Below, in pieces: positions 1-7,206 of a stretch of DNA of 22,208 nucleotides. Numbering within the stretch: position 1 is the first letter of the stretch; each line of letters starts with the position of its first letter. The notes beneath the pieces were generated by a model. The model made no database searches. It was not told the origin of the DNA and saw only the letters and a list, made by a program, of their open reading frames with translations. The translations under genes and the position numbers were made by a program. This DNA comes from a virus: IMG/VR virus record IMGVR_UViG_3300030450_003808, positions 1 through 22,208 of that record; one strand, 5' to 3'.

Positions 1-369
1 AGCCCGGTCTAATTCTTTGATTTGATCCCGAACTAAACCTACAATTTGCGTGTTACCGATGACGGGAATTATATGATTATTGATAGAGTTTTCTTTTGAC
101 AAAATAGTACCTCGCTTATACTCCAAATTGGAAACCCATTCTAAAGCGTAATCTTTAAATAAAACTCTATCGGATTTAATATCTTTAAAACCGTTGGCTG
201 CAATTTCTTTTGCTTTTTGTCGGCAAAATTCAAACGCTAAGGATTGTGTTTTTACCTTGGTAGATATACGTATACGTTTTATCAGTACTTCGTTATCATC
301 GTACAGGCGAAATACTCCCATATAAAACGGGGAATCTTTTCTTTTTTCTAAAGTGTGTTGGATTTTCAT
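1..369 (-). CDS. int: Tyrosine-type phage integrase, N-terminal part (cut by window edge)
   Basis: The first 123 residues are present; the catalytic domain lies beyond the left edge. Residues about 12-55 look like an arm-type DNA-binding region (short strands, then LAFEFCRQKAKEIA). Residues about 66-123 look like the SAM-like core-binding domain of tyrosine recombinases (FKDYALEWVSNLEYKRG, then NHIIPVIGNTQI). Family members recombine phage attP with host attB. The start follows AAGGAGAGAAT and, further upstream, a CCACCAAGC leader element. It is the last gene of the leftward operon that carries the Xis-like and Rad52-like genes. The catalytic R-H-R-Y residues cannot be seen here, so activity is not shown. 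Confidence 0.85.
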   Translation of the reverse strand, partial: MKIQHTLEKRKDSPFYMGVFRLYDDNEVLIKRIRISTKVKTQSLAFEFCRQKAKEIAANGFKDIKSDRVLFKDYALEWVSNLEYKRGTILSKENSINNHIIPVIGNTQIVGLVRDQIKELDRA

Positions 370-386
370 ATTCTCTCCTTGATAGG

Positions 387-396
387 TGCTTGGTGG
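387..396 (-). repeat. CCACCAAGC leader element, copy 1 (integrase)
   Basis: On the minus strand this reads CCACCAAGCA, followed by ACCTATC, AAGGAGAGAAT and the integrase ATG. It is one of six copies in the window, all on the minus strand. It sits directly downstream of the stop codon of the preceding gene (399-401). Confidence 0.8.
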
Positions 397-398
397 AT

Positions 399-881
399 TT
401 AATCGTTCTTTTTAATACTTAAATTCGGTTTTCCTTTTTCAACGTGTACATGTTCCAGGGCAGGACCATCTTTTTTGATTAACTTTTTCACTTCGGATTT
501 TAACACTTTTTGCGAGGTTTTGATACATTTTTCACCTAATTTGCCAAGACCTTTTAATTCTTGTAAAGCAGCTTCTTCATCTTCGATTACTATTTTGTCA
601 GGAGACTTCTTTAAAAAGAACGTGTATGGTCCAATCCGGGTACTCTGGTTTGGCAGTCTTTTAATTCCTTCTTCTAACTGTTCTTTTAAATACAAAATAT
701 GTTCTTCTACTTTTCTTCTGGCATTTTGCATATACACGATATACGCATCTTCTTCTAGTTTACGGTTATGCATCTCATCTTCTAGTTCACAAATTTTCTG
801 GAAAACATCAATAACCATTTGACGAATATCAATATCTTCTTTTGGTCTGGTACTTTTAATTTCGTACGTAGTAGTCTCCAT
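399..881 (-). CDS. Siphovirus Gp157-like protein
   Basis: 160 residues. The first half (about 20-80) is a long charged helix that probably forms a coiled coil. The second half has the pattern I associate with the phage Gp157 family: a short beta segment (GPYTFFLKKSPDKIVIEDE), then a helix, then a Lys-rich stretch ending in PNLSIKK. Gp157 was named from a phage linked to resistance against phage infection in Streptococcus thermophilus, and members usually sit beside recombination or single-strand-binding genes, as here. GAGGAGGAGACAG lies upstream of the ATG inside the preceding gene, which it overlaps by 26 bp. An alternative is a Gam-like or other coiled-coil protein; the assignment rests on overall shape. 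Confidence 0.55.
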   Translation of the reverse strand: METTTYEIKSTRPKEDIDIRQMVIDVFQKICELEDEMHNRKLEEDAYIVYMQNARRKVEEHILYLKEQLEEGIKRLPNQSTRIGPYTFFLKKSPDKIVIEDEEAALQELKGLGKLGEKCIKTSQKVLKSEVKKLIKKDGPALEHVHVEKGKPNLSIKKND

Positions 882-1062
882 TTTTTTCTGTCTCCTCCTC
901 TTGTGAGTCCAACCATTGCCGGACTTTTTCAGGTCTAAAATAATATCTGCTATCGATTACGTGGCAGGGTAGCCCTCTTGATTCTATCCATTTTTTTACC
1001 GTATTTCTGGTTACTCCCAAATCTGACGCCATATCTTTCAGTTTAATTAACTGCACTTTCAT
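856..1062 (-). CDS. Excisionase-like small HTH protein (MerR/AlpA type)
   Basis: 68 residues with a winged-helix or MerR-type HTH of the HTH_17 kind: KLKDMASDLGVTRNTVKKWI at about 8-27, then a short wing (RYYFRPEKVRQWLDSQ). Such proteins are phage excisionases (Xis) or small activators that bend att-site DNA. The short length, lack of any other domain and position two genes upstream of the integrase in the same operon favour excisionase. The start follows GGAGC with an 8-nt spacer and overlaps the end of the preceding gene by 20 bp. A role as a transcriptional regulator is the main alternative. Confidence 0.7.
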   Translation of the reverse strand: MKVQLIKLKDMASDLGVTRNTVKKWIESRGLPCHVIDSRYYFRPEKVRQWLDSQEEETEKNGDYYVRN

Positions 1063-1549
1063 GTTGAATAGCTCCTATTCGCTTAGCCCATGGCGGCAGA
1101 CGTTTAAGGGCTTCGTTATAAATGAAGGTCATCTCCCATGCCTTTTTTCCAATCGTATCTTTTTCATCTTTTCCAGAAGCTTCCCAAGCTCTAGCCCTTG
1201 AATAACGATGCAAGGCCTTGCTTGGCACTTCGAGAAATTCCATACAGACTTCCAGAGTGCCAGAACATCGAATTGTAGGATCTTCTTCCATCGCAAACTT
1301 TTGATTCTCTGCTTTCTTCTTTTTACCAATGTCTCTGCCACATTTTTGTCCAGAAAAATTAATGTCGGCTTTATGTTTAAATCCGCATCGATTACATATA
1401 AGATTTTGCTCATCGTTTGCCATCCACCAAAATGAAGTTTTACCGTCTAATTCTTTTTGCCCAACCAGTCGGGCTGATTCTAAAATTCTAGGCGGAAGGT
1501 TACGAATGTGATGTTCATACGCATCTAGAATGGATCTATCGATATCCAT
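1043..1549 (-). CDS. Uncharacterised zinc-finger-like phage protein
   Basis: 168 residues, not recognised as a named family. Cys52 and Cys55 form a CNRC knuckle (LICNRCGFKHK), followed by Cys70 in QKCGRDIG and by Cys95 and Cys102. Three or four of these could bind zinc. The C-terminal half is helical and rich in aromatic and charged residues (AWEASGKDEK, WEMTFIYNEALKRLPPWAKR). The start codon overlaps the preceding stop (TGATG), indicating translational coupling; no strong ribosome site precedes it. Its position between the Xis-like and recombination genes suggests DNA work, but no function can be assigned. Confidence 0.7.
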   Translation of the reverse strand: MDIDRSILDAYEHHIRNLPPRILESARLVGQKELDGKTSFWWMANDEQNLICNRCGFKHKADINFSGQKCGRDIGKKKKAENQKFAMEEDPTIRCSGTLEVCMEFLEVPSKALHRYSRARAWEASGKDEKDTIGKKAWEMTFIYNEALKRLPPWAKRIGAIQHESAVN

Positions 1550-1992
1550 CAGTTTATTTGTTGCAGAATTTCAATGTATCTTTTCTGCAACCCTTTTTCA
1601 TTTGCATTTTGTACTTCTTTTAAAACCTGTATGTAAGGAATACAACCTAAGAAAGCAGCGATAGACCTCGTTTTCATATTGCTGTTGACTTTGAATGTTT
1701 CCCCACTTTTTTCAAACCAAACTTCTATATACATTAATGTAGTCGGTAAACCGTAATCTTCAATAACATCATCAAATTTATGCTGGTGTTTTTTCATTTC
1801 CATAGAAGGTGATTTAACGCCGATTGCATCTAGGTATTGTTGATTAAAAAAATTGATTGCAGCAGTTCTTTTTTTTAATTTTATAATATCATCGTAAGTT
1901 AGTTGTTGTTTAATATCTATCTCCTTATCAGCGAGTAGCTGCCAGCTTTCGGGAGAGTTTGCAAAAGCTGACATTACCAATCCACCGCCCAT
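1549..1992 (-). CDS. Hypothetical protein of the recombination operon
   Basis: 147 residues from the first ATG, or 141 if the second ATG at 1974 (MSAFANS...) is used. Neither start has a strong ribosome site; GGTGG lies about 9 nt before the second one, so I slightly prefer it. The protein is soluble and mixed helix/strand, with no signal peptide, membrane segment or motif I recognise. It lies just downstream of the Rad52-like annealase, with a 26-bp gap, and overlaps the next gene by TGATG. Phage recombination operons often hold an accessory factor here, but that is context only. Confidence 0.7.
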   Translation of the reverse strand: MGGGLVMSAFANSPESWQLLADKEIDIKQQLTYDDIIKLKKRTAAINFFNQQYLDAIGVKSPSMEMKKHQHKFDDVIEDYGLPTTLMYIEVWFEKSGETFKVNSNMKTRSIAAFLGCIPYIQVLKEVQNANEKGLQKRYIEILQQIN

Positions 1993-2018
1993 GAATTGTC
2001 TACTCGCCTTGGATAAAA

Positions 2019-2861
2019 TTAAAATGGAATATCTTCTTGCTCTTTCTGAGCAGCAATAAGTTCTGAGTTTTTATATTCTTCCCAATCTGGTTCCGTTTCA
2101 CTATCCTGGGCAATCGATTTCATGCCCCAGAAACAAATCCAAGTACATATTGGTTCGTAACAAGTCTTAGGAATTTGTGCATGATCCCTCTGACCGGTAA
2201 CTTCTTCAACGTAATTCGTAATGCCATCGAATGTAAGACCTCTTTCTTCCGGGGATTTACCATCGGCATAAGGCACTTCTCTTGTTGCAGATTTAGTATC
2301 TTCTGGATCAATTTTTTCCCTATACGTGTTGCTTTTCCAAAGAGCGATCATCCGTTTTACTTGTGCCATCGAAATGGTATCTATTTGCGTTAAAAGATCC
2401 TCTTTTTTTGCGACCACCGATTTTACAAATTCATCTTTGAGTATCGGTTCTTTATGGGCTACCTGCGGAACTACCGATGGAGTAGAAGCAGGAGTAACCG
2501 CATCGGATTCTGAATCATAGAGGTGCAGTCCGATGCCAAACATCGATGCTGCTTTTTTTAGGGCATCGGTTGATGCACTCTTTAATGCATCTCCCACCGA
2601 TTTTCCTTTTCGCAAAGAAGAACCAAATGCTTCTTTGCAAATATCTTTTGCAGCAATCATAACGACCACATACACTTCATCATTTCCTACATGATGCTGC
2701 GTAATAGAAAAAGACCAGTCATGTTCAAACGCTTCGTTAAATCGTTTGATATAGTGGTGGGCCTCGACATAGCTTAAATATCCTCCACCAAATCCCGGTC
2801 TTTGCTTTATTAAATGCGGTGCAAATTCCTTTTCTAATATTTGTGTATGTTTGGTTTCCAT
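2019..2861 (-). CDS. Rad52/Sak-like single-strand DNA annealing protein
   Basis: 280 residues. The N-terminal 120 residues match the phage Rad52-family (Sak-like) annealase pattern: GGYLSYVEAHHYIKRFNEAF, then a strand-rich stretch (WSFSITQHHV, EVYVVVMIAAK), then the hallmark helix DALKSASTDALKKAASMFGIGLHLYD. Such proteins anneal single strands during phage recombination and replication. Residues 130-270 are less conserved. The last residues are QKEQEDIPF, nearly the same as the C-terminal tip of bacterial SSB (DDDIPF), which recruits host repair enzymes. The start has GGAGGATG at good distance and overlaps the upstream stop (TAATG). Confidence 0.85.
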   Translation of the reverse strand: METKHTQILEKEFAPHLIKQRPGFGGGYLSYVEAHHYIKRFNEAFEHDWSFSITQHHVGNDEVYVVVMIAAKDICKEAFGSSLRKGKSVGDALKSASTDALKKAASMFGIGLHLYDSESDAVTPASTPSVVPQVAHKEPILKDEFVKSVVAKKEDLLTQIDTISMAQVKRMIALWKSNTYREKIDPEDTKSATREVPYADGKSPEERGLTFDGITNYVEEVTGQRDHAQIPKTCYEPICTWICFWGMKSIAQDSETEPDWEEYKNSELIAAQKEQEDIPF

Positions 2862-3178
2862 TAAAAGTCATCCTCCGGTTTATAGGTGCGTATGGAATGG
2901 TAGGATTTATGGTGTCCGTTAGAGCTGCCTACAGACTCAAACTCTTTTTGGAAGGTTTCCGCAGGCCCTGTAAAGTCATCATTGTCCATAGGCAGGGTGA
3001 TTTCATATTTTACAATGGGATTGGATTTGAATGATTCTGGCAAAACTTGTGCGGAGTTGTAATCGATAAAATCCGGTGAAAGCGTTCTGGCCATATTTTT
3101 TGCTTCAATTTCATCGGTTGCTTCTAAATTCCAGCTAGCCCTTAATAAAATAAAACCTCTTACTTGATATCTATTCAT
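2861..3178 (-). CDS. Hypothetical first gene of the early leftward operon
   Basis: 105 residues, not recognised. It is short and soluble, with an N-terminal strand-helix unit (RYQVRGFILLRASWNLEATD, then EAKNMARTL) and a polar, probably disordered C-terminal part. It ends in YKPEDDF, an acidic tail with a terminal Phe that recalls SSB C-terminal tips. It is coupled to the annealase gene by a TAATG overlap. The start follows GAGGAGATATA, which directly follows a CCACCAAGC leader element. Being the promoter-proximal gene, it should be among the first made after induction or infection. Confidence 0.7.
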   Translation of the reverse strand: MNRYQVRGFILLRASWNLEATDEIEAKNMARTLSPDFIDYNSAQVLPESFKSNPIVKYEITLPMDNDDFTGPAETFQKEFESVGSSNGHHKSYHSIRTYKPEDDF

Positions 3179-3189
3179 TATATCTCCTC

Positions 3190-3198
3190 GCTTGGTGG
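3190..3198 (-). repeat. CCACCAAGC leader element, copy 2 (first early gene)
   Basis: On the minus strand CCACCAAGC runs directly into GAGGAGATATA and the ATG at 3178. This is the tightest spacing among the copies. Confidence 0.8.
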
Positions 3199-3238
3199 TG
3201 TTTAAAATAAATTAATTAACTTGAATTGTGGTACATGG

Positions 3239-3278
3239 TGTCATTAACGTCAATTAAGTATCATTTAGTGTCATAAAG
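3239..3278. repeat. Four phased TGTCAttaa-type repeats in the switch region
   Basis: Four short repeats lie in the same direction at near 10-bp spacing: TGTCATTAA (3239), CGTCAATTAA (3248), TATCATTTA (3259) and TGTCATAAA (3269). The spacing is close to one helical turn, so all copies face one side of the DNA, as expected for cooperative binding by a repressor or Cro-like protein. They lie between the early start codon and the repressor promoter. A separate TTTGT-TT-ACAAA palindrome is at 3285-3296. Confidence 0.5.
3254..3274 (-). CDS. Possible six-residue leader peptide in the early mRNA
   Basis: On the minus strand AAAAGGAGACTTT is followed by ATG and five sense codons, then TAA (MTLNDT). 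The ribosome site is as good as those of real genes nearby, and it falls within the leader expected from the early promoter at 3328-3356. It may only load ribosomes or influence the leader. It overlaps the phased repeats, so the ATGs might instead be a by-product of ATGACA repeats. Confidence 0.3.
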   Translation of the reverse strand: MTLNDT

Positions 3279-3300
3279 TCTCCTTTTGTTTACAAATGTG

Positions 3301-3330
3301 TTGTTTTTTATTCAAAAATATGACTACAAT
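3301..3330 (+). promoter_or_regulatory. Putative repressor promoter
   Basis: TTGTTT (3301-3306) and TACAAT (3325-3330) are separated by 18 bp and point towards the repressor, giving a leader of about 50 nt. The -10 overlaps the -10 of the opposing early promoter, as is common in lysogeny switches. Confidence 0.45.
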
Positions 3331-3356
3331 CTAAAACATTATTTAATTTATGTCAA
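3328..3356 (-). promoter_or_regulatory. Putative early leftward promoter
   Basis: On the minus strand, TTGACA (3356-3351), a 17-bp spacer and TAGATT (3333-3328) drive the recombination operon with a leader of about 145 nt. The -35 is inside a TTTATGTCAA box that recurs in the same role at 6477-6486, suggesting shared control. Confidence 0.5.
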
Positions 3357-3386
3357 ATTTATTTTGAAAATGCAAAGGGAGAAGAT

Positions 3387-4214
3387 ATGAAAACAGTGGA
3401 AAGAGATAGATCAAGTAAAGAAAGAAAGATAAGAAATTATAAAAGAGATGCGATAAGTAGGATTAAATCTGCTTCGCCGCCGATAACCATTGAACAGTAT
3501 GACGAAGCCAATGGTGAATTATTATTTCGCATCGTATCTGCCAGGAATCGATCAAGACTTTTGCAAAAAGAAGTTGCAGAGAAGATGGGCATTAGCACGC
3601 TAACGTATTCCCGTATGGAAAATGGCACAAGCAAAATGTCGCCAGCCCAAATGTTAATCTTTGCTGAAATAACCGAAGTATCTCTGGATTATCTTTACGG
3701 AAGAACTTCAAGCATGGACGTTACAAAAGAAGGAATCGAAGAATATGTACATGTACCTTTGTTTACTAACCGAATGAATCTCCCGGATCTATCTTTAGGC
3801 TACAACTGGGATGAAGTTTTAGAAAGAGCCGACAAGGTGCAGCGTTTTTTAAAAAACAATGCTTTAGGAAAAATGATATCGGATAGAACGATAATGCTTT
3901 TATCGAATACGAATACGTTATGGCCATTTATTCATAAAGGCAATTATTACATGGTAGATTTGGCTCAAAAAGTATTAAATATCTATGATTTAATTTCAGT
4001 ACAAACCGAAGGGATTTTAGATAGGCCTATTTTTACTGGCAAATTAGGTGCGGTTTCTACCATTGGCGAGGGTAAAAAACAATGTCTGGTGCAACAGCCG
4101 ACACCAATCGGACAGTCCAGGCATGAATCTTTAATTCTTTCCCATGATGAACTTAAAAAAAGATTAATCGGTAAAGTGATTTGGCGTGCTGGGGAAATGG
4201 AATTTAGAGTCTAA
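3387..4214 (+). CDS. XRE-family phage repressor with LexA/S24-like C-terminal region
   Basis: 275 residues. A basic N-terminal extension (1-46) precedes an XRE helix-turn-helix at about 47-106 (LLQKEVAEKMGISTLTYSRM, ending SLDYLYGR). The C-terminal region resembles the LexA/CI S24 fold: TLWPFIHKGNYYMVD at 177-191 aligns with the usual SMxPxIxxGDxVxVD. The expected catalytic serine is Thr177 and the Gly-Asp before it is missing, so self-cleavage may be lost. It is transcribed away from the early operon across a repeat-filled switch, which fits the lysogeny repressor. AAGGGAGAAGAT precedes the ATG. A Cro-like or host-derived regulator is less likely. Confidence 0.85.
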   Translation: MKTVERDRSSKERKIRNYKRDAISRIKSASPPITIEQYDEANGELLFRIVSARNRSRLLQKEVAEKMGISTLTYSRMENGTSKMSPAQMLIFAEITEVSLDYLYGRTSSMDVTKEGIEEYVHVPLFTNRMNLPDLSLGYNWDEVLERADKVQRFLKNNALGKMISDRTIMLLSNTNTLWPFIHKGNYYMVDLAQKVLNIYDLISVQTEGILDRPIFTGKLGAVSTIGEGKKQCLVQQPTPIGQSRHESLILSHDELKKRLIGKVIWRAGEMEFRV

Positions 4215-4273
4215 AAAAATACGAAATAAATAAAAATTAAATAATGAAAAAATACCCCGGACTTTGCACTTTT

Positions 4274-4291
4274 TGGCCCGTTTTTAGGCCA
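4274..4291 (+). terminator. Weak hairpin downstream of the repressor
   Basis: TGGCC and GGCCA pair across an 8-nt loop, about 60 bp after the repressor stop. Only three T follow on this strand, so it is at best a weak terminator. Confidence 0.3.
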
Positions 4292-4369
4292 TTTAAAAAA
4301 AAATAAAAAAAAGTTTTTCGTTAATTGCACTTAATGTACATATTTGACAACGCACTTTTCAGATTCGAC

Positions 4370-4398
4370 TTGACACGGTGTTTTAGGCATATTATTTT
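4370..4398 (+). promoter_or_regulatory. Sigma70-like promoter for a small RNA or the zinc-ribbon gene
   Basis: A perfect TTGACA (4370-4375) is followed by a 17-bp spacer and TATTTT (4393-4398). A second TTGACA lies at 4344-4349 without a good -10. Transcription would begin near 4405, with no protein gene for about 175 bp. Confidence 0.5.
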
Positions 4399-4404
4399 GT
4401 TTAT

Positions 4405-4540
4405 GCATTTCTAAAGGAAGTTCAAGAGCTTTTTCTGGTTTTTAAAAACCCTTGTAAATTCAAAAGATATATATTGAACATGCGTAGCATGTTCGTGGCC
4501 TTCGGCCACAAGTTAGCTTTTGCTTTTTTCTTTTTTTTTC
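4405..4540 (+). ncRNA. Candidate small RNA with tandem hairpins and T-tract end
   Basis: A transcript from the 4370-4398 promoter would hold the palindrome GGTTTTTAAAAACC, then GAACATGC-GTA-GCATGTTC (4476-4494, 8-bp stem), then directly GTGGCC-TTC-GGCCAC (4495-4509, 6-bp stem). T6 (4524-4529) and T9 (4531-4539) follow. Promoter, compact structure and T-rich end are what an independent small RNA gene looks like. Its location beside the repressor recalls regulatory RNAs of lysogeny regions. It could instead be a structured leader of the zinc-ribbon gene at 4582. I do not recognise an RNA family. Confidence 0.45.
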
Positions 4541-4581
4541 GGTTTTTTTCTTTTTAGCCCCTATCTCTAGGAACTACCCAT

Positions 4582-4737
4582 ATGCAGATATGTAAGGATT
4601 GCCATCGACCGTTTTCTGATCCCCTAACCAAATGTCCTTACTGTAGTAGCTCGCATTATCAGGTGAAAAAGGAAGCTTTAGGGAGGGTGCAACGATTACC
4701 AAAAGAACTTGCAAAGCAGCTTCAATGTACATCGTGA
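4582..4737 (+). CDS. 51-residue zinc-ribbon microprotein
   Basis: The 51-residue frame has two CxxC knuckles, CKDC (4-7) and CPYC (18-21), spaced as in a rubredoxin-like zinc ribbon. A basic helix follows (YQVKKEALGRVQRLPKELAK) and a last Cys at 49. AGGA lies about 10 nt before the ATG and the stop is immediately before a terminator. Small zinc ribbons in phages often bind nucleic acid or RNA polymerase, but no specific function can be assigned. It is the only protein gene between the repressor and the second minus operon, and it reads towards that operon. Confidence 0.6.
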   Translation: MQICKDCHRPFSDPLTKCPYCSSSHYQVKKEALGRVQRLPKELAKQLQCTS

Positions 4738-4744
4738 GCAGATT

Positions 4745-4771
4745 AAAAAAAATGGCTCCCGGGCAGGAGCC
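4745..4771 (-). terminator. Rho-independent terminator of the second early operon
   Basis: On the minus strand GGCTCC and GGAGCC form a 6-7 bp stem with a TGCCCG loop, followed by ATTTTTTTTAATC. It lies about 30 bp after the last stop of the 6406-to-4804 operon and would keep that transcript from running into the small-RNA region. On the plus strand the T-run is too short to be a strong terminator. Confidence 0.8.
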
Positions 4772-4803
4772 AAATTTCATATTGAATATTTTATAAATAT
4801 CAT

Positions 4804-5133
4804 TTAGACTTGCATAGTCTCTCCAACGCTTGGTGGTGTTTTTGGGACATAAGGGCCAGGTGCTTCGGTATCTGGCTCTAACTTTTTCAAAGCATCTTTC
4901 AAAATATCCGAATCGAATAATCGCAGTACACTTTCTACTTCGCCAAGTTGACCGCCTGTCATATCCGTATATCTAAAGTAAATTTCAGATTTGATATTAC
5001 GGATCTTCTTATCCAGACCATGTAAATATTTTTCATAGCGTGCCTGGTGCTGCTTTTTTACTTTATGCAACTTATCCAGCTCTTTCAGCATCCCTCTCAC
5101 TTTCCTGGACTTGCCTGTATATTGTTCTATCAT
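4804..5133 (-). CDS. Hypothetical coiled-coil protein, last gene of the four-gene operon
   Basis: 109 residues. Residues about 5-55 are a highly charged, Lys-rich helix likely to form a coiled coil (MLKELDKLHKVKKQHQARYE), followed by a short acidic middle and a Pro-rich tail (APGPYVPKTPPSVGETMQV). The start has TTGGAGGTAAATTAAA, an excellent ribosome site, one base after the preceding stop. The codons for TPPS and GETM coincide with a CCACCAAGC element plus GGAGAG and an in-frame ATG, so the last residues look like a read-through of a former gene leader. No family recognised. Confidence 0.65.
   Translation of the reverse strand: MIEQYTGKSRKVRGMLKELDKLHKVKKQHQARYEKYLHGLDKKIRNIKSEIYFRYTDMTGGQLGEVESVLRLFDSDILKDALKKLEPDTEAPGPYVPKTPPSVGETMQV
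4828..4836 (-). repeat. CCACCAAGC leader element, copy 3 (inside a gene end)
   Basis: The minus strand reads CCACCAAGCG, TTGGAGAGACT, ATG, then two codons and TAA. This is the same arrangement as the other leaders, but it lies within the coding end of the 4804-5133 gene and leads to only a three-codon frame. Confidence 0.75.
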
Positions 5134-5134
5134 T

Positions 5135-5551
5135 TTAATTTACCTCCAAGTATTCGGGTAAAGAAGTAACAATCGAATCTGCTATTTTATTTTTGATACG
5201 TACAATCTGCTTAAAATCTTCTCTTTTAAATACATCACCTTCCGAACATTGATAGATCAATGAGCAGATTTTCTTGTACGTTTTCACCAGGGAACCATCA
5301 TGGACCGGAGTAAATTCGTAATTATCAAGAATGTCGGATTTATCTATAGGACCGGGAAGTCCTTCTAAGGATTCATCTGGATATCGCTGCGTAACTGCAT
5401 CCAAATTTGTAGCGTAAAATTTTCTGCCCATTTCATTTGATTTTGGTATTACAGATCCATAAAACAGATGTGTTCTTTCTCGGTGCGGAATACGGTTAAT
5501 GCCATCGACTATATAATCCATACTTTTTTTACTAATAATAAATGCACTCAT
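5135..5551 (-). CDS. Hypothetical protein (starts MSAFIISKK)
   Basis: 138 residues, third gene of the four-gene operon. It is soluble, alpha/beta in look, with no signal peptide or membrane segment. The N-terminus MSAFIISKKSMDYIVDGIN resembles uncharacterised proteins I have seen in phages and plasmids, but I cannot name a family. Residues about 95-135 are a charged helical segment. It is preceded by CCACCAAGCA and AGGAGAGAGAA, and by the 45-bp hairpin spacer at 5566-5610. The stop is one base from the next start. Its job is unknown; the operon position suggests early host takeover or phage control. Confidence 0.65.
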   Translation of the reverse strand: MSAFIISKKSMDYIVDGINRIPHRERTHLFYGSVIPKSNEMGRKFYATNLDAVTQRYPDESLEGLPGPIDKSDILDNYEFTPVHDGSLVKTYKKICSLIYQCSEGDVFKREDFKQIVRIKNKIADSIVTSLPEYLEVN

Positions 5552-5565
5552 TTCTCTCTCCTATG

Positions 5566-5610
5566 TGCTTGGTGGTTTTGGGGAGCCGAAGCTCCCCGGG
5601 TTAAAAGTTA
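5566..5610 (-). repeat. 45-bp spacer module with UUCG hairpin, copy A
   Basis: Identical to 6116-6160. Read on the minus strand it starts with the stop codon of the upstream gene, then CTTTTAACCC, the hairpin GGGGAGC-TTCG-GCTCCCC (5597-5580), AAAA and CCACCAAGCA. The C(UUCG)G tetraloop appears only on the minus RNA. No T-run follows the stem, so it is not a classical terminator. Leader element copy 4 is at 5566-5575. Confidence 0.85.
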
Positions 5611-6099
5611 GTTTATTTTTACTAAAGTTCTGTGGTGGATACATTGGATATTATGACCGCCAGCAATAATTGTATTAATGCTAATTGCTTTTCTACCTTG
5701 TTTTGTTTCAACAGTATAAAGTCCATCAAAAGCATTGTTGTCAGAATAAATTACTTCTGAATCGGAAATCTCTGTAACACCAGCTTTTTCTAATTTTTTT
5801 GCTAACATCAAATTTCTGTTTTTCAATTTACGGTCTGCATCTTTTAAAGCTAATTCTCTTACTTGTTTGATGCTTGCAAATTTCAACTTCTCATACATTC
5901 CTTTTCCACCAGCAACTTCACACTGTCTCATGAACCAATGGTATCTGTCGGAATCAAATTTTTCTTCACCACGTTTCATGTTGTTTAAAGCATCAAATCT
6001 ATACTCATACCAATCAACCATTTTTCTTTTATAGCTATTATCATGTTGCTCTAAATCTTTTTCTAAGTTCGCTACCATTTCTTTAATTTCTGTTTTCAT
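5608..6099 (-). CDS. Hypothetical protein, second gene of the four-gene operon
   Basis: 163 residues, not recognised. The first 110 residues are mostly charged helices rich in Lys and Glu with several aromatic residues (KMVDWYEYRFDALNN, RYHWFMRQCEVAGGKGMYEK) and a repeat-like RKLKNRNLMLAKKLEKAG helix. The last 50 residues look strand-rich (GLYTVETKQGRKAISI) and could form a small beta domain. No membrane or signal segment. The ribosome site is AGGAGAG, preceded by CCACCAAGCA. Both flanking spacers are copies of the same 45-bp module, which makes this gene look like an inserted cassette. Confidence 0.65.
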   Translation of the reverse strand: MKTEIKEMVANLEKDLEQHDNSYKRKMVDWYEYRFDALNNMKRGEEKFDSDRYHWFMRQCEVAGGKGMYEKLKFASIKQVRELALKDADRKLKNRNLMLAKKLEKAGVTEISDSEVIYSDNNAFDGLYTVETKQGRKAISINTIIAGGHNIQCIHHRTLVKIN

Positions 6100-6115
6100 C
6101 TTTTTTTCTCTCCTA

Positions 6116-6160
6116 TGCTTGGTGGTTTTGGGGAGCCGAAGCTCCCCGGGTTAAAAGTTA
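6116..6160 (-). repeat. 45-bp spacer module with UUCG hairpin, copy B
   Basis: Identical over 45 bp to 5566-5610, again starting with the TAA of the upstream gene (6160-6158), then the C(UUCG)G hairpin (6147-6130), then leader element copy 5 (6116-6125) ahead of AGGAGAG and the ATG at 6099. Confidence 0.85.
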
Positions 6161-6406
6161 TTTCTTTTTTATTAATTTAATTTCGTACCTATGGTTAGGT
6201 TTACAATCCATCGCAGTCTCAAGACTACCATAACCGCCTACTACATAACCGTCTGCATCATATGCCGAAACGTATATTTCATAGTCTGAATTTTCTGGAC
6301 TAGAATGAAGAATAGCAAGCTTCTCTCCAAGATAGCGTTTTAATTCAATAACATCTGCATGAATCGTAACTGTGTTTGCTTGTTGATTTAAATTTTTCTT
6401 ACTCAT
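6158..6406 (-). CDS. Hypothetical protein, first gene of the four-gene operon
   Basis: 82 residues, not recognised. It is mixed alpha/beta with strands at about 10-18 and 42-56 (YEIYVSAYDADGYVVGGYGS) and a basic C-terminus (YEIKLIKKK). No motif or membrane segment is seen. The start follows CCACCAAGCA and AAGGAGAGAAAA. It is the promoter-proximal gene of the operon started by the promoter at 6458-6486, with a leader of about 45 nt, so it should be made early. Function unknown. Confidence 0.65.
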   Translation of the reverse strand: MSKKNLNQQANTVTIHADVIELKRYLGEKLAILHSSPENSDYEIYVSAYDADGYVVGGYGSLETAMDCKPNHRYEIKLIKKK

Positions 6407-6418
6407 TTTTCTCTCCTT

Positions 6419-6428
6419 TGCTTGGTGG
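6419..6428 (-). repeat. CCACCAAGC leader element, copy 6 (first gene of the operon)
   Basis: The minus strand reads CCACCAAGCA, then AAGGAGAGAAAA and ATG. This copy lacks the upstream UUCG hairpin because the promoter lies just before it. Confidence 0.8.
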
Positions 6429-6457: not shown

Positions 6458-6486
6458 ATGTTACCAAAATAAGTGCTTTATGTCAA
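6458..6486 (-). promoter_or_regulatory. Promoter of the four-gene minus operon
   Basis: TTGACA (6486-6481), a 17-bp spacer and TAACAT (6463-6458) read leftward. The -35 is part of TTTATGTCAA (6477-6486), the same 10 bp used by the early promoter near 3350. Confidence 0.6.
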
Positions 6487-6558
6487 CTAAATAATGCACA
6501 TAATCGACTATTAATTATCATAATCGCATGTTTATGGCTCTTGACAAATTGACATAAG
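6477..6558. promoter_or_regulatory. Inverted TTTATGTCAA boxes and CATAATCG repeats (possible operators)
   Basis: TTTATGTCAA (6477-6486) and its inverse TTGACATAAG (6549-6558, 9 of 10) flank two direct CATAATCG copies (6499-6506 and 6519-6526, 20 bp apart, two helical turns). The boxes overlap both divergent promoters, so a bound protein could shut both. Confidence 0.4.
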
Positions 6559-6608: not shown

Positions 6609-6833
6609 GTGCGAACTAGGATCCATGTGAATCAGCACATTATTCGGCGTAACCAAAAAACCGGGGAACGAAAACCGGTACTTACTTGCAAGACGTATCG
6701 CAGCAACGAGTATGCTTCTCAAGTAGAAATTCTAGGACCATCCAAAGTTGTCTATGCTCCAGACAAACCATTAAGCTGCGGTGCCAGAGTCTGGATAGAA
6801 ACCGATAGCGAGGTCGTTCATCATGACCAATAA
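6609..6833 (+). CDS. Conserved small protein ahead of the terminase genes
   Basis: 74 residues with a GTG start after AAAAGGAACTAG. The pattern (RIHVNQHIIRRNQKTGERKP, then VEILGPSKVVYAPDKPLSCGARVWIE) looks like a small, strand-rich protein I have seen next to terminase genes in environmental phages, but I know no function. A downstream in-frame GTG exists; the first is favoured by the ribosome site and by the conserved-looking IHVNQH segment. It overlaps the small terminase by 11 bp and is the first gene of the late operon. Confidence 0.65.
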   Translation: MRTRIHVNQHIIRRNQKTGERKPVLTCKTYRSNEYASQVEILGPSKVVYAPDKPLSCGARVWIETDSEVVHHDQ

Positions 6834-7206
6834 GAAAACAAATAGGGGAACGCTGTATCAACCCAGTGAAAAAGAAAGACACGATGTCTTAATGTTAAGT
6901 GCTACAGGTGTTCCCCATGAAAATATTGCAAAGGTCTTAGGTATTACCAGACCGACACTCAACAAACATTTCAAAGACGAACTGGAGCTGGGTAAGGAGA
7001 AAGCAAATCTAAGCGTAACGAAAGCTCTGTTTCATCAAGCGACCAATCTCAATAACGTCACTGCTCAAATCTTTTGGGCAAAGACAAGAATGAAATGGAG
7101 TGAACCACCAAGAGAAATATCAGGGCCAGAGGGTAAGGCTTTAAACTTGTTTGTCGAAACCGGCATAAGAAGAAAAGAAGATGATAGCGAAAACAAAGAG
7201 AGTTAG
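6823..7206 (+). CDS. terS: Terminase small subunit
   Basis: 127 residues. An N-terminal HTH (about 18-56, MLSATGVPHENIAKVLGITR and TLNKHFKDEL) is followed by a helical segment ending in NVTAQIFWAKTRMKW, typical of phage small terminase subunits and related DNA-recognition proteins. TerS binds the packaging site and hands DNA to the large subunit. It is encoded just before TerL and overlaps it by 26 bp, the usual arrangement. The acidic C-terminus (RRKEDDSENKES) may contact TerL. The call rests on the pattern and on position. Confidence 0.8.
   Translation: MTNKKTNRGTLYQPSEKERHDVLMLSATGVPHENIAKVLGITRPTLNKHFKDELELGKEKANLSVTKALFHQATNLNNVTAQIFWAKTRMKWSEPPREISGPEGKALNLFVETGIRRKEDDSENKES

Follow-up and report, generated by a model that had tools for sequence, protein, structure and literature searches.

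Cluster K mycobacteriophages were shown in 2011 to carry short repeats linked to translation starts, and the cases described come mainly from actinobacterial viruses, without an established function in the literature found. The Start Associated Sequences (SAS) of Cluster K (5'-GGGATAGGAGCCC) are present, nearly all in one orientation, in the non-structural half of the genome, mostly before genes with large upstream gaps (>50 bp) and ATG starts, and their function is unknown (PMC3203893). An SAS has also been reported for Microbacterium Cluster EF (GGGAAAGGACCCC), while the Cluster EC motif is 18 bp long and occurs in 12 variable copies 22–30 bp upstream of starts, and that of Cluster EG is an inverted repeat (palindromic) found 14–21 bp upstream of leftward genes only (PMC7302621). 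Two other kinds of site are relevant for comparison. In Cluster A mycobacteriophages the repressor binds stoperators, 13-bp sites in the DNA that number up to ∼30 per genome (PMC6550527, PMC9283540). In phage T4, RegB cuts GGAG in the Shine-Dalgarno (SD) sequences of early mRNAs and, through RegB and RegA, early mRNAs are controlled together at their translation initiation regions (PMC3014915).

The DNA stretch analysed here (the window) is a whole virus record of 22,208 bases and seems to be part of the genome of a temperate podovirus-like phage. Early genes on the minus strand occupy positions 1–6406, and plus-strand late genes follow from about position 6609; the leftward block probably does correspond to early genes, the term 'early' being based on gene content only. 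Portal, tail, small terminase and terminase large subunit (TerL) genes were recognised in the late region, and a Rad52-type protein, a Gam/Gp157-like protein, an HTH_3 repressor and an excisionase-like HTH protein were also recognised. The nearest TerL sequences were those of Pelagibacter phages (47% identity at most) and of uncultured contigs (50% at most). Family searches with the small early proteins gave no family matches, and searches for related loci with the early proteins P0006, P0008 and P0009 found no relatives. The nonamer CCACCAAGC, which is C/A-rich, occurs in the window as six exact copies, all on the minus strand, and no exact copy was found on the plus strand. The copies are as follows:

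388–396, minus strand: copy 1, in the leader of the integrase gene that runs off the left end
3190–3198, minus strand: copy 2, in the leader of the first gene of operon B (2861–3178), adjoining the divergent repressor gene
4828–4836, minus strand: copy 3, an orphan, in frame within the 3'-end of the open reading frame (ORF) 4804–5133
5567–5575, minus strand: copy 4, between P0002 and P0001, inside a 75-bp duplication
6117–6125, minus strand: copy 5, between P0003 and P0002, inside the 75-bp duplication
6420–6428, minus strand: copy 6, in the 5'-UTR of the first gene of operon A, 3 nt before GGAGAGA

The genes led by these copies, and the other features of the region, are:

1–369, minus strand: N-terminal part of a tyrosine integrase (Phage_int_SAM_3 above the Pfam cut-off), cut by the left edge of the window; led by copy 1
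2861–3178, minus strand: P0004, 105 aa, no assigned function, first gene of leftward operon B; led by copy 2
5135–5551, minus strand: P0001, 138 aa, no assigned function; led by copy 4
5608–6099, minus strand: P0002, 163 aa, phage family of unknown function with a C-terminal NTI-AGG[YH]NIQC motif; led by copy 5
6158–6406, minus strand: P0003, 82 aa, no assigned function, first gene of leftward operon A; led by copy 6
3387–4214, plus strand: HTH_3 repressor-like regulator, divergent from operon B, a candidate DNA-binding protein
6458–6486, minus strand: predicted sigma-70-type promoter of operon A, TTGACA-17-TAACAT (consensus match only)
3328–3356, minus strand: predicted promoter of operon B, TTGACA-17-TAGATT (consensus match only)
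4753–4772, minus strand: predicted intrinsic terminator of operon A, just past orphan copy 3
5551–5625, minus strand: 75-bp intergenic duplicate A, in which the element is closely preceded by a GGGGAGC-UUCG-GCUCCCC hairpin lacking a T-run after it
6101–6175, minus strand: 75-bp intergenic duplicate B, 87% identical to A without gaps

A sequence-only reading of this DNA had pointed to six minus-strand copies close to a GGAG and an ATG, and the exact 9-mer was confirmed at all six sites. It had placed them 0–8 nt upstream of the ribosome site; the placement 5' of the GGAG was correct, but the range was not, the distance from the end of the 9-mer to the GGAG being 9, 2, 3, 5, 3 and 3 nt for copies 1 to 6, respectively (18, 11, 12, 15, 17 and 13 nt to the ATG). 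The spacer between the 9-mer and the GGAG thus varies in length (2–9 nt), and it varies in sequence as well. In all six leaders the GGAG has a purine-rich 3' side. No copy was found in the leaders of late genes, in agreement with that reading, and the one-base variant it had noticed in a coding region near 7110 is CCACCAAGA, at 7105–7113, within the small-terminase ORF. Orphan copy 3 is followed by GGAGAGA and ATGCAAGTCTAA, and its ATG opens the series ATG CAA GTC TAA; the predicted terminator then closes operon A with no gene in between. This copy resembles the remnant of a lost cassette, a leader whose gene has gone.

The six copies contrast with a mean of 0.12 expected, and a maximum of one, in 200 third-order Markov copies of the window. 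When leaders were shuffled, none of 3000 sets had a non-repetitive 9-mer in five or more leaders. The nine bases had been described as invariant and external to the ribosome site, and they proved to be conserved far beyond their flanks: with five sites anchored on the 9-mer (one of the duplicated pair was left out), mean pairwise identity was 1.00 in the nine columns but fell to 0.30 in the 25 bases on the upstream side and to 0.32 on the downstream side, against a background of 0.26. Conservation thus takes the form of a sharp block, not of a fading copy, and the element is a real, specific feature. From these copies, all within one genome, we infer that CCACCAAGC has probably been under selection.

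The distribution of the element among genes was equally sharp. It was present on five of the six uncoupled minus-strand genes (those neither overlapping nor abutting an upstream gene) and on none of the five coupled ones (Fisher p = 0.015), and it was absent from all ten uncoupled plus-strand genes (p = 0.0014), although these p-values are descriptive, since the groups were set after seeing the data and derive from a simple gene caller. The five element-led genes have upstream gaps of 29, 56, 58, 202 and 208 bp and belong to different gene families within the genome. The exception, the uncoupled minus-strand gene at 1549–1992, has a 26-bp gap, no clear Shine-Dalgarno sequence and no element. 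The element therefore marks minus-strand genes of the early block that start translation independently of the upstream gene. The broader proposal that it marks early minus-strand genes holds for the five copies that lead genes, but not for the copy at 4828, which leads none, nor for the coupled genes, which have no copy.

The resemblance to the Cluster K SAS, suggested earlier together with a difference in sequence, was found on both counts. Like the SAS, CCACCAAGC is a short asymmetric repeat, far above chance, located a few nucleotides before starts in one orientation; it is confined to non-structural genes (the ten uncoupled plus-strand genes lack it), prefers large upstream gaps (29–208 bp here) and ATG starts, and was not found as a leader element in the relatives examined. 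It differs in sequence and in having only six copies. Moreover, the Cluster K SAS contains AGGAG and so overlaps the SD, 3–7 bp from the start codon (PMC3203893), whereas here the conserved block lies outside the SD, 2–9 nt further 5'. Inverted repeats of 17 bp (ESAS) precede about half of the SAS sites, while here an upstream hairpin is present only at the two duplicated copies. The EC and EG motifs are also start-linked repeats upstream of the SD position, and EG likewise precedes leftward genes only; the EF, EC and EG sequences are, however, unrelated to CCACCAAGC, and they occur in phages of Actinobacteria, while the terminase found here is closest to those of Pelagibacter phages. The element is a variant of a known, unexplained start-associated kind and does not belong to the Cluster K family.

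Chances are roughly even that CCACCAAGC is a start-associated leader element of the leftward early genes that would act at the RNA level and coordinate early translation. It would lie in the 5' untranslated part of the transcript, immediately before the Shine-Dalgarno sequence of independently translated genes, and would act in the RNA at translation initiation or on mRNA stability. An RNA-binding protein, a nuclease or a small RNA, of phage or host origin, would recognise this common site and set the output of the early genes together. Three features suggest a site in the mRNA: the position beside the SD at genes within operons, a spacer that varies, and the bias towards one strand. The copies at 5567, 6117 and 388 are internal to operons and no predicted promoter ends just upstream of them, so the context that the copies share is the ribosome site, not a promoter. 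The main predicted promoters are overlapped by no CCACCAAGC copy, copies 2 and 6 being downstream of them; weaker 10-of-12 promoter matches (3206–3177 and 3204–3177) span copy 2. The orphan copy, which leads no gene, counts against the leader-element reading.

As to how the element might be read, its modelled probability of being unpaired was 0.71–0.91 in three of the leaders, the remaining three giving values of about 0.5. Pairing of CCACCAAGC with 16S rRNA was no better than that of shuffled 9-mers (one alphaproteobacterial 16S locus was used), and the search for pairing with nearby mRNA gave no signal and no hairpin partner nearby. These two results make a separate recognising factor the likelier route, and a rigid contact with the 30S subunit is hard to reconcile with the variable SD spacing. 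Family searches identified no candidate factor among the early proteins. We tentatively consider that a phage-encoded trans-acting factor might read CCACCAAGC as a short RNA operator beside the Shine-Dalgarno sequence, switching the set of early genes, including the integrase, on or off at translation. The six leaders resemble RegB targets in having a GGAG followed by a purine-rich stretch; RegB, however, needs only the GGAG and an A-rich 3' side, and the T4 system does not involve a 9-mer upstream of it. Among the proteins searched by family, no homologue of RegB or RegA was detected, several early proteins matching nothing.

The sequence-only reading had also expected enrichment upstream of genes in related phages, and none was seen in the distant relatives found. 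The TerL, portal and P0002-family loci inspected (1.88 Mb from IMG/VR, phages and genomes) contained the 9-mer at 18 scattered positions, none of them convincing as a leader copy; the sole leader-like one (locus L362) was set aside as lying in a high-GC sequence that looks coding. The whole records of 20 relatives and three host genomes showed no CCACCAAGC with a GGAG nearby. Pattern scans of IMG/VR gave single scattered matches and, among the matches listed, no contig had two leader copies; across 398 bacterial genomes matches were also single, except for one genome with two on different contigs. In other phages, the leaders of P0002 homologues differ from CCACCAAGC at no fewer than three of the nine positions; since these homologues do not have the element, it is not carried along with this gene family. 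The other leader 9-mers that recur in TerL relatives did not exceed the shuffled range. Rfam gave nothing at curated thresholds, BLAST of the duplicated leader returned weak partial matches only, and a literature search found no paper naming CCACCAAGC together with a phage. The relatives compared are distant (TerL at most 50% identical) and near-identical records may lie outside the set searched, and for these reasons the absence of the element from them does not refute the leader-element reading.

Among the alternatives, the most likely one, though clearly short of even chances, is that the 9-mer and its SD form a leader cassette spread by duplication and short-homology recombination, aided by the Rad52-type annealing protein of the phage, the nonamer being a mere homology patch or a passive hitchhiker at gene boundaries. 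The phage does encode a Rad52-family protein, two copies lie in the 75-bp intergenic duplication, copies 2 and 3 have 15 identical nucleotides in common, copies 5 and 6 show 96% identity along a stretch of 25 nt, and the orphan resembles a leader that lost its gene. Copies 4 (5567) and 5 (6117) are not independent, since both are within the duplicated segment; this duplication and the longer shared stretches indicate that copying has contributed, leaving some four to five independent sites instead of six. Passive copies, however, would be expected to decay evenly, while outside the duplicate pair the flanks and spacer are near background and the nine bases remain invariant. This sharp block of conservation argues against plain copying as the whole explanation, and copying does not predict the strict avoidance of coupled genes.

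It is unlikely that CCACCAAGC is instead a DNA operator or stoperator, an asymmetric site at which the divergent HTH repressor (3387–4214) would block elongation through the early operons during lysogeny, in the manner of Cluster A mycobacteriophages. As in that system, the sites are asymmetric and have one orientation relative to transcription; they lie in gaps near gene starts, and the phage encodes both a repressor and an integrase. Most stoperators of Cluster A are not associated with promoters, and they have one orientation (PMC6550527). Every copy here, unlike those stoperators, is tied to an SD at 2–9 nt, an association that a transcription roadblock would not need. HTH_3 repressors, moreover, usually bind palindromes as dimers. 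The promoter gaps contain a different exact motif, TTGACATAA, in three copies (0 of 300 simulations), which is a better operator candidate; two of its three copies lie at the -35 regions predicted for the leftward operons. A single-sequence structure model of the repressor had a pLDDT of 32 and was unusable.

It is very unlikely that the element works without a factor, as an intrinsic translation enhancer or spacer holding the sequence 5' of the SD free of pairing. The element is C/A-rich and was modelled as largely unpaired in three leaders, but only about 50% unpaired in the other three; generic enhancers tolerate variation, for which nine invariant bases are too specific, and late genes with similar SDs lack the element. 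A Chi-like recombination hotspot is extremely improbable: the plus-strand sequence (GCTTGGTGG) resembles E. coli Chi (GCTGGTGG) with one base more, and the copies have one orientation close to gene boundaries, but such a hotspot would not predict the fixed position beside the SD, each strand of the window has a single copy of Chi itself, and the Gam/Gp157-like protein would be expected to oppose RecBCD.

The element described here is a case, in a phage whose terminase is closest to those of Pelagibacter phages, in which only nine invariant bases stand cleanly apart from the ribosome site, and the coupled genes without the element, together with the orphan copy, provide built-in internal controls. 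Such a case would allow 'part of the ribosome site' to be separated from 'site for a separate factor'. If the reading that invokes a trans-acting factor were true, this phage would have a sequence-specific early translational regulon outside the actinobacteriophages.

The extended -35 sequence TTGACATAA was found as three exact copies in the window, confined to the two divergent promoter gaps:

3348-3356 (-), exact match
6478-6486 (-), exact match
6549-6557 (+), exact match

The simulated mean was 0.18 copies, and none of 300 simulations yielded three or more. TTGACATAA is a possible operator, common to both gaps, for the HTH_3 repressor-like regulator P0006.

Further features of the window included the following:

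4804-4836 (-), orphan leader: the invariant 9-mer, a Shine-Dalgarno sequence and an ATG, then a stop after three codons
5551-5625 and 6101-6175, 75-bp intergenic duplicate pair containing a hairpin
4582-4737 (+), 51-aa ORF with two CxxC pairs, zinc-ribbon-like

The orphan leader, which lies shortly before a predicted terminator, appears to be what is left of a gene cassette that was deleted, and its sequence is now read as the C-terminal end of ORF 4804-5133. The 51-aa ORF, with weak matches only, sits between the two early operons. The hairpin in the duplicate (perfect 7-bp stem, UUCG tetraloop, no T-run after it) perhaps has a role in mRNA stability or processing.

The family of P0002 (5608-6099, -), with the conserved C-terminal motif AGG[YH]NIQC-H-R-L-K, is widespread among phages, its members occurring in T4-like Serratia, Vibrio, Shewanella and Pseudomonas phages, and also in Rhodobacter and Sphingomonas phages. 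At two loci of other phages with P0002 relatives, L319 and L323, each phage had its own 9-mer common to four leaders (TTTCGTATT/TTGCATAAT and GTGATACAA, respectively); these 9-mers are perhaps promoters.
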